A stretch of 50,221 nt of DNA. Origin: Bacteroidia bacterium (GTDB lineage Bacteria; Bacteroidota; Bacteroidia; Bacteroidales; UBA932). The position numbers and the translations under genes are program-made. This document shows positions 40,666 through 42,846 of the stretch, piece after piece (position 1 is the first letter of the stretch; every line of letters starts with the position of its first letter). Location: assembly GCA_030529945.1 (NCBI GenBank), contig JAUMVX010000015.1:1-50221 (forward strand), in the 5' to 3' direction. The notes under the pieces were generated by a model that made no database searches, was not told where the DNA came from, and saw nothing but the letters and a program-made list of their open reading frames with translations.

Positions 40666-41673
40666 ATGAACAATTACTCAAATACCATTTCCGAACTGCT
40701 GAAGCCCGACATAACCGAAAAGGCGGTTGTTCTTGACTTGTTCGCCGGCTGCGGAGGATTGTCGCTGGGCTTTGAGGCGGCAGGATATAAGACATATGGT
40801 TATGAGATGGTGCCTGAAGCCGCAGCTACCTATAACCGGAATATGGAAGGCCACTGTTTTGCTCATAAGCTGACCGTCGGGTTCGATTATTCGGAAATAG
40901 AGAGTCCGGACATCATTATAGGAGGTCCCCCTTGCCAACCGTTCAGCCGCTTCGGCAATCAGGAAGGTTTCAAAGACGCTCGCGACGGCTTCCCGATTTT
41001 CATAGATGCTGTCAAGCGTTTTCATCCCATTATTTTTCTTTTCGAGAATGTGGCCAACATAATCGGGAGGCATAGATGGTACTTTGACCTTATTGTCAAC
41101 GAGCTGAAGAAAGAGAGCTACCACATCAGCTATCGTCTTCTGAATGCTAAGGATTATGGTGTGCCGCAGAACAGGGAAAGACTGGTCTGTGTCGGACATC
41201 GGGGCGGTTTCAGCTTTCCTGAGGCGGAAAAAAAGCAGATAACGGTCGAAGAAGCTATCGGCGACACTATGCTTGATGAAAGGCCGACGGACAAAATCTT
41301 GACACCAAGGATGGATGAGTATATCGCAGCATATGAACAGAAATCCCACTGCATCACACCAAGAGACCTGCATCCCGGCCAGCCGGCGCGCACCATCACT
41401 TGTCGGAATCTTGCGGGTGCCACAAGTGATATGCAGCGAGTGAAACTGCCCGATGGCCGACGGCGGCGCATCACGGTAAGAGAGGCTGCTCGGCTGCAAA
41501 GTTTTCCCGACTGGTTTGAATTTGAGGGGAATGAAACAAGACAGTATTATCAGATCGGGAATGCGGTTCCACCTCTTCTTGCATACAAGTTGGCACTTGC
41601 CGTCAAGGAAGCGTATAAGGCCGCTTGTGAAGGAACGGCCGTATATTACCCGGAGACACTTTTTGATATATAA
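40666..41673 (+). CDS. DNA (cytosine-5-)-methyltransferase
   Basis: A 335-residue C5-cytosine methyltransferase, presumably the protective partner of the adjacent endonuclease. Motif I DLFAGCGGLSLG (24-35), motif IV GGPPCQPFSR with catalytic C90, motif VI FENV (E127), motif VIII QNRERL, motif IX RITVREAARLQSFPD and motif X GNAVPP are all intact, so it should be active. The target-recognition region between VIII and IX is short, and specificity cannot be read from it. Base and codon use are more A/T-ended than in flanking core genes, which suggests horizontal acquisition. The split endonuclease gene begins 9 bases downstream. Confidence 0.93.
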   Translation: MNNYSNTISELLKPDITEKAVVLDLFAGCGGLSLGFEAAGYKTYGYEMVPEAAATYNRNMEGHCFAHKLTVGFDYSEIESPDIIIGGPPCQPFSRFGNQEGFKDARDGFPIFIDAVKRFHPIIFLFENVANIIGRHRWYFDLIVNELKKESYHISYRLLNAKDYGVPQNRERLVCVGHRGGFSFPEAEKKQITVEEAIGDTMLDERPTDKILTPRMDEYIAAYEQKSHCITPRDLHPGQPARTITCRNLAGATSDMQRVKLPDGRRRRITVREAARLQSFPDWFEFEGNETRQYYQIGNAVPPLLAYKLALAVKEAYKAACEGTAVYYPETLFDI

Positions 41674-41682
41674 TCTGAACTT

Positions 41683-42846
41683 ATGGAGATTCATTTGACA
41701 GGAAATAAGAATGACACCGTACAGAGGCTCATTTTCGATATGATAGACGTGCTGGAGGCTGTCGGCATCCCCCTTGAAGGCCTGAAAGCCCCCAAGAAGC
41801 ATCGTTCACTTGAAAAAATGGCTATGGCCTGTCTGGCAGTCGGGCAAATTAAGAATTCGTTTGAAGAAGCTAAATCTTCGGAGGATGGAATCTTTCTCCG
41901 TACACGGGACATCATTGACTTCGAGAACGCCAATTACGGTGAACGCATCTCCTCCGGGTCATATGACGACATCCGCAGGAAAGACCTGCTGATGCCGGTC
42001 GAGCAAATGATAGTTCTCCGCTCCGCTTCCATCGAAAGTCAAGCGACAAACAATCCTTCAAGAGGATACGCACTCAGCCCCTCTTTTGCCGGCCTTTTGA
42101 AGGATTTCGGCTCGAACAGATGGGATAAGTGATGATGAAAAAATAAGTTGGTAAGTTTTTGTGAAGGATTTTTGTGGATAAATTTGTTTGTGAAGAAGGA
42201 GTGTACCGGGGTACACGACTGATGAACAAATGAATTTAGACCAAAAAGACGAGCAAAAGCACCAAGTTATTTTTTAGGAATCACTAAACACCTTGAGACT
42301 TTCAAGAAGGAGACAAAAGCCCTCAAGGAGGAGTTCGCAAGAAAGAGGGAGATAGAGAAGATTCCCGTCACCCTGCCTGACGGCGTAGAGCTTCAACTTT
42401 CGTCCGGGGAACACAATGTTCTACAAAAGGCCATCATTGAGAGTTTCTTGCCCTTATTTGGAATGGGCGCCGAAGTCCTTTACATCGGAGACACCTGCGA
42501 CAAATATCTATTTCTGAAGCAAGACAGACTCTCGGATCTCGGCTGTTTTATGATCGAACACGAGGAACTCCCCGATGTCATCGCCTATAGCCGTGATAAA
42601 AACATACTCTTCCTGATAGAAGCCTATCATTCTACAGGCCAATGGAGCGAGATTCGTGTCAAGAAGATTCGTGAGAAACTTGTCTGTTGTAATGCCATTG
42701 TCGTGTATATCACTGCTTTCGAAACGATGGATTCATTCAGGAAGAAAGCGGCTGAAATTGCTTGGGAGACAGAGGTATGGGTCGCTGACTTCCCGGAGCA
42801 TCTCATCCATTTCAACGGCTATAAATTTCTGGAAATCCACAAGTGA
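41683..42846 (+). pseudogene. BsuBI/PstI-type restriction endonuclease, split by an insertion
   Basis: The N-terminal piece (41683-42132, 149 codons) has the BsuBI/PstI N-domain pattern (RDIIDFENANYGE, SYDDIRR, NNPSRGYALSP). The C-terminal piece (42286-42846) matches the catalytic domain: IPVTLPDG, YIGDTCDK, LPDVIAY, FLIEAYHS, AWETEVWVADFPEHLIHF. The two are separated by an element at 42129-42284; removing it and one TAA joins ...RWDK to HLETF... in frame, giving 333 residues, close to the 316-326 of BsuBI and PstI. As it stands translation stops at 42132, so active enzyme is unlikely. The family is usually paired with N6-adenine, not C5-cytosine, methyltransferases. Catalytic-region changes (AYHSTG where I expect AVTSHG) are also noted. 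Confidence 0.85.
42129..42284. mobile_element. 156-bp MITE-like insertion with terminal inverted repeats
   Basis: The ends, 42129-42151 and 42262-42284, are inverted repeats matching at 18 of 23 positions; the terminal GTGAT/ATCAC and an inner 9-base block (AAAAAATAA) are perfect. TAA flanks it on both sides (42126-42128 and 42285-42287), read as a 3-bp target duplication. It is AT-rich, encodes no transposase, and contains a perfect 7-bp palindrome around GG (42201-42216) and a TAAATTTG -7-like element (42179-42186). A shorter related copy is at 24398-24450. The transposase source is unknown; TNA-type 3-bp duplications are known from some IS5-family subgroups. Confidence 0.75.

Follow-up and report, generated by a model that had tools for sequence, protein, structure and literature searches.

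A hairpin MITE, probably with ISAzo13-family ends, interrupts a BsuBI/PstI-type restriction endonuclease gene in a Bacteroidia bacterium

Analysis of a 50,221-nucleotide stretch of a Bacteroidia bacterium genome (contig JAUMVX010000015.1, referred to here as the window) revealed a 156-bp MITE inside a restriction endonuclease gene (Table 1). The explanation that we hold to be highly probable is that a hairpin MITE with ends of the ISAzo13 family broke the endonuclease, decays by nearly precise loss and carries a conserved folded core. Such a non-autonomous transposon would be moved by an ISAzo13 transposase, and its insertion at a TAA would have duplicated these three bases and ended the reading frame of the gene. 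The family appears to have burst within one species, presumably recently. Helped by the hairpin, replication would then slip from one short direct repeat to another within the ends and the duplication, and relics of 41-46 bp or 19 bp would remain. The folded central module, which seems to ride on elements with other ends as well, would be maintained by selection for a presumed function.

Table 1. Positions of the MITE, its parts and the neighbouring genes in the window
Feature	Position	Strand	Remarks
Cytosine-C5 methyltransferase (PF00145), upstream neighbour	40666..41673	+	open frame
Endonuclease N-terminal part (PF17728), BsuBI/PstI-type	41683..42132	+	TGA stop 42130-42132
TAA target-site duplication, left copy	42126..42128	+	
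MITE, 156 bp	42129..42284	+	equals one other genome copy
Left terminal inverted repeat, 23 bp	42129..42151	+	
Structured core, 75 nt	42173..42247	+	scores 83.2 bits with model R1, whose 25 rows include this sequence
Core centre, 34 nt	42192..42225	+	tandem G.A motifs enclosing a stem of 5 bp with a CGGG loop
Right terminal inverted repeat, 23 bp	42262..42284	-	
TAA target-site duplication, right copy	42285..42287	+	
Endonuclease C-terminal part (PF06616)	42285..42846	+	severed from its start

The earlier note had described an AT-rich element without a transposase, with 23-bp ends matching inversely at 18 of 23 positions and TAA on both sides, and each of these properties was seen in the sequence. 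The GC content was 34.6% in the element versus 56.8% in the window, and the element contained no frame of even 60 codons, as is expected of a non-coding MITE. A scan of the window for stretches of 100-400 bp that have a direct repeat of 3 bp and at least 18 of 23 inverted end positions, with the five tip bases matching, returned this arrangement alone. The proposed inner 16-base palindrome was located as two 7-bp arms around GG, but it was not a perfect palindrome. When folded end to end as a single strand, the element reached z scores of -7.15 as DNA and -9.92 as RNA, and none of 200 shuffles matched this fold. The -7-like element, TAAATTTG, was present at 42179-42186; the suggestion that the MITE may carry a promoter was not supported, because TAnnTTTG occurred in one of the 25 aligned cores described below.

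The insertion into a restriction endonuclease gene was confirmed by the protein domains, with the PF17728 part and the PF06616 part lying on opposite sides of the element. The stop codon of the first part begins one base into the element, and no frame at the locus contained both Pfam domains of an intact BsuBI/PstI endonuclease. Excision of the element with one TAA had been predicted to restore a protein of 333 residues; counted by coordinates, a frame running from 41683 without the interruption would be 334 residues long. Homologous genes were examined for empty sites with the second endonuclease half as the query, which gave seven matches in 6 of the 60 other genomes. Five of the seven proteins compared were matched by both halves, and the other two (L235 and L238) by the second half alone. 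In all five homologues, the junction lysine common to both halves fell on one position, namely 119 in L233 (G410, 56% identity), 127 in L234, L236 and L239, and 129 in L237. Nothing is therefore inserted in these five proteins, which run through the site uninterrupted, and no intact homologue holding the 156 bases was found among those compared. The endonuclease gene (41683-42846) adjoins the cytosine-C5 methyltransferase gene, whereas the usual partners of PstI-type endonucleases are adenine methyltransferases. Judged from the sequence, the disrupted endonuclease and the open frame of the adjacent methyltransferase make up a restriction-modification pair without its cutter.

The element was found repeatedly in its own genome (G000; 2.28 Mb, 93 contigs, 95.73% complete), contrary to the possibility raised beforehand that no further copies exist. 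A BLASTN search gave 46 matching places at E up to 10, including the copy in the window, the weakest at E 2.09, and one other place was identical over the 162 queried bases. When three mismatches were allowed, the 23-bp end pattern was present at 84 places versus none for the reversed control, and the 19-mer end with up to one mismatch occurred at 40 places versus none in 399 congeners. Among the 17 full-length copies read, 14 were flanked by an exact 3-bp duplication (TAA, TTA, TAT or ATA), one (C4) by the 4-bp duplication TTAT, and two (C65 and C86) by unequal triplets. Eleven of them differed from the consensus at 0-1 positions and 14 at 0-2. A full-length copy with TTA on both sides (L017, G000:C71:1977-2132) was 56 columns off the consensus; its interior was apparently inverted relative to its ends, which looks like an inversion within the hairpin. 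Some contigs start or stop within a copy. The copies on C87, C86 and C71 were considered as further gene interruptions on account of apparent long open frames, but Pfam genes flanked them on one side only; the endonuclease is thus the only gene shown to be interrupted, the remaining copies having been judged by open frames alone. The repeated copies, the duplications and the split endonuclease bear out the proposal of a MITE, a target duplication and an insertion, and 42129-42284, a short non-coding stretch with inverted ends, a duplication and many near-identical copies, is a MITE. Short palindromes in many copies would also be seen if the repeat were of REP/REPIN type and mobilised as a hairpin by a RAYT, a Y1 transposase, but Y1 movement is not expected to give direct flanking duplications; their presence at 14 of the 17 copies disfavours such an origin, which is very improbable.

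An ISAzo13-family IS with matching ends was present in Prevotella sp. P3-122. This autonomous IS (L181:5360-6520, 1161 bp, with TAA on both sides) was reached by following a lone end in that genome; the pairing of ends had not brought up this IS, whose right end has one extra A. Its 351-aa protein matched DDE_Tnp_ISAZ013 (PF07592) at E 6.5e-65 and the NCBIfam ISAzo13 equivalog NF033519 with 304.6 bits (cut-off 200). The right end of the MITE had 24 of 30 bases in common with the left end of this IS, and the left end of the MITE 23 of 30. Prevotella sp. P3-122 also contained another ISAzo13 copy (L263, G428:C18), with GTAAT tips, ends of the GTAATGTGTAAAAAATAAGTTGC kind and unequal flanks (TAA/TTA), and a copy in Bacteroides sp. 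UBA1773 had one end GTGATGATTAAAAAATAA. The MITE and the ISAzo13 elements resemble each other in their terminal bases and, for one IS copy, in the TAA at either side; they differ in that the MITE has no gene and the IS loci (L181, L262-L267) have no match to the core model R1. From these comparisons, ISAzo13 is the likely parent family of the MITE, and the transposase of this family would have mobilised it.

PF07592 matched in three of 16 genomes searched, twice above the cut-off, and it had no match in the 95.73% complete own genome, where the driver may have been lost, may be unassembled or may be of another kind. The missing ISAzo13 gene, together with five DDE_Tnp_1 genes in the own genome, would fit a different history, in which another transposase family with similar short duplications (e.g. 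IS5/IS1031-like) moves the element and the likeness of the ends to ISAzo13 is convergence. However, in 22 DDE_Tnp_1 loci, including these five, the end pattern was matched only here and there and with many mismatches, PF13359 had no match in 8 genomes, and the 24 of 30 terminal bases shared with the ISAzo13 copy also count against convergence, so that this history appears quite unlikely. IS5-type drivers sought via PF13359 and PF01609 gave nothing convincing. The end pair at G000:C48:6556-8002 (L050) was tried as an IS and rejected, the ends being two mini elements that bracket a 438-aa frame, which by eye we take to be trigger factor.

Relatives of the MITE were present in other genomes. A scan of a species-genome collection with GTGATNNNNAAAAAATAANTTGG gave at least 96 stretches. 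Of the 80 matches listed, 70 came, judged by their titles, from Bacteroidales, among which we presume Ca. Colivivens to belong; many came from a few MAGs, and the rest were partly chance. Among the matches listed, 27 paired elements of 72-304 bp were found in other public genomes, 21 of them between equal flanking triplets and the longest frame within them being 98 codons. Similar elements thus occur in gut Bacteroidales MAGs. Four longer relatives from Prevotella sp. Red_deer_2_mag_11 (L159, L161, L191 and L211) could be aligned with one another for some 300 bp, starting at the same end, and had no match to model R1, which indicates another interior on the same ends. A 36-base end query returned 22 records each from the plasmid and phage collections, with best E values of 4 and 1 that were taken as chance, and the exact 19-mer was not found in viral contigs.

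Besides full-length copies, the genome contained much shorter forms. Elements of 41-46 bp consisted of hardly more than both ends; equal flanks were seen at C50, C42:28003 and C59 (TTA), C64 (TAT), C25 (TTG) and, with variant tips, C42:2220 (TAA), and unequal flanks at both C48 sites and C72. The 19-mer pattern occurred at 99 places, 98 of which were read, and 29 were classed as 19-mers without a longer continuation. Equal triplets flanked 15 of these 29, a number that averaged 6.5 and never exceeded 14 in 200,000 shuffles; the unequal triplets at the other 14 count against reading them as relics. Where the flanks were TTA or TAA, 11 were TTA/TTA, four TAA/TAA and none mixed (Fisher p 0.0007). 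With a strict 19-mer pattern, 12 places were found in the own genome; the triplets were equal at 11 of them and mixed at the one within the C50 mini element. Deletion between direct repeats of the consensus and the duplication predicts products of 19 bp (ACTT), 45 bp (AAGTT) and 42-43 bp (T runs), and these are the sizes observed; a 37-bp product, predicted equally because its repeat has the same length as the one behind the 45-bp product, was not seen among the short forms. The pattern of a predicted 8-bp relic matched 36 places, but it also matches ordinary right ends, so these places are no test, and one candidate (L329) remained. Nucleotide empty sites of the 19-bp relics were not found: a radA-galE stretch was matched at E 1e-20 in 240 of 250 genomes drawn (the own genome included), and the matches, at best about 74%, broke off between the genes. 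Taken on these sizes and repeats, the short forms would fit a hairpin that was lost nearly precisely, through slippage at microhomologies. In the nearly precise excision of Tn10, deletion between short direct repeats within the inverted ends leaves a relic. The likeness lies in this relic of a direct-repeat deletion; here the relics are of 19 or 41-46 bp and there are many per genome.

The 19-bp and 41-46-bp copies could instead be the smallest mobile units, if a transposase used, besides the tip GTGAT, a cryptic tip in inverted orientation (ATAAC, bases 15-19 of that end) and so moved 19 bp. The existence of 19-mers between equal triplets speaks for this, as do the TTA-flanked 19-mers in other genomes (two in G424, one in G426 and none in the other 13 of the 16 genomes searched with the strict pattern), and Elhai reportedly claimed very small mobile repeats in cyanobacteria in 2008. 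The 19-mer of G426 differs from the ends known from that genome. However, those of G424 are the ends of its own elements (L148 and L206), some 19-mer variants in the own genome mirror variants of longer elements, the break points fall on direct repeats, and two ends bound by transposase would hardly fit on 19 bp. Small mobile units are therefore considered unlikely.

The folds of several relatives had a common centre, and a structured core of 75 nt could be aligned. A loose scan gave 422 places, mostly chance, and a stricter one gave 51; a filter kept 26. A chance row and an L069 copy were then omitted and the L087 copy among the 51 was added, so that 25 mutually related rows were aligned. The core is laid out as GAAGGAG, a five-bp stem, CGGG, the returning stem and YGACTGA, followed by an outer helix. 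With the structure set by hand, 89.4% of the cells in the 25 rows were paired versus 64.0% in shuffled alignments, two-sided changes were found in 20 of the 23 pairs (shuffled 15.7) and 130 cells (shuffled 43.1), and the covariation score was 0.651 (shuffled 0.210, slid at most 0.184); none of these measures was reached by 500 shuffles. The pattern used to choose the rows specified GAAGGAG and GACTGATGA, tolerating mismatches, and required the 5-bp inner stem, so the conservation of the G.A bases and the inner stem is partly by construction. The outer helix, which was not favoured by the choice of rows, was 84.0% paired (shuffled 57.4), with two-sided changes in 82 cells (shuffled 29.5) and a score of 0.645 (shuffled 0.204, slid at most 0.293), all three unreached in 500 shuffles; its 13 pairs with two-sided changes were reached by 37 of the 500. 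The CGGG loop was present in 20 of the 25 rows.

Model R1, built from these 25 rows, matched within 21 of the 27 elements found by ends alone among the matches listed, nine of which were not among its rows, and no match was found in six end-defined elements (L137, L163, L203, L207, L211 and L224). Over 100 sources, R1 gave 37 places at E 0.1. In 68 other loci, it gave one clear place (E 3.9e-7), in a locus of the congener G078 that had been chosen for another purpose, and one at E 0.5. No Rfam family reached the gathering score over window positions 42050-42400 or the 8 loci with relatives. Ten core places were examined for ends, taking the best of several placements each; four had inverted ends with a duplication and six had none. 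In these best placements, the G078 element had GAAGCTGTTT ends and a TGA duplication, two G055 elements had GAATCTGTTTTGATTC ends with TAA and AGAAGCTATTTTGATTC ends with AATG, and a Muribaculaceae element had AAGTGTCAGCTC ends with ATCAT. A comparison with 60 congeners at E 1e-5 gave matches to the element in G055 alone; there were three of them, all to the core centre. In the own genome, one of the listed placements on C71 gave a 158-bp element with GAAAC ends and TCA on both sides, whose 34-nt centre equals that of the element in the window, with 52 of 76 arm bases matching. Another locus (L069, G000:C90:9585-9756) contained two core-bearing fragments in tandem, and no inverted ends were found there.

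The covariation suggests that the core is a conserved folded module, as RNA or as a folded single DNA strand, selected in MITEs or exchanged between them. As a tentative extension, the 75-nt core could be a transferable module that several end types of gut Bacteroidales MITEs gained because it is beneficial; it may bind a host protein or tame transcripts at the insertion site, as selected cargo of transposons without genes. It is somewhat more doubtful that the central structure is a functionless by-product of palindrome maintenance through hairpin-templated correction between the arms. The elements are palindromes, arm-to-arm correction yields two-sided changes, and the outer tandem G.A was replaced in four of the 25 rows, three times by A-T, all of which suit such a by-product. 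However, correction would erase mismatches, yet the inner tandem G.A was complete in 24 and the outer in 21 of the 25 pattern-chosen rows. Eight diverged own-genome copies also kept 256 of 272 core bases versus 497 of 608 arm bases, although in two of them (L087 and L018) the centre was no better kept than the arms, and the other-ended C71 element kept 34 of 34 versus 52 of 76.

Many-copy MITEs of Bacteroidales include MITE239, MITE464/PgRS, MITE700 and BrickBuilt of Porphyromonas gingivalis, which resemble the present element in their short inverted ends, Bacteroidales host and high copy number (PMC4596501). In the parts of that paper available, their ends (GAGACC.., ACGTSA..) were compared with those of IS5-family ISPg elements, whereas the present ends resemble the ISAzo13 family (PMC4596501). 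In the Bacillus cereus group, the accessible text calls bcr1-3 MITE-like and describes bcr10 and bcr18 as conserved predicted RNA elements, so that among bcr1-bcr18 the families described as mobile are not those with a conserved structure (PMC3446304); in the present MITEs, one covarying core occurs across several end types. A paper that contains both ISAzo13 and MITE terms does not mention MITEs in its passages on ISAzo13, and a term search of the main text of a 2024 review of prokaryotic MITEs did not find ISAzo13, Bacteroid or Prevotella. A search for papers that combine MITEs with covariation and structured RNA in Bacteroid mobile elements brought up one on plant retrozymes.

The analysis describes a MITE family, probably of ISAzo13 type, in gut Bacteroidales, together with a candidate donor of its transposase, and a restriction system that appears to have been disarmed by a MITE insertion. 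The putative relics are material from which the loss of bacterial MITEs could be measured, and the covarying structure within these MITEs lends itself to testing, whether as RNA or as folded DNA.
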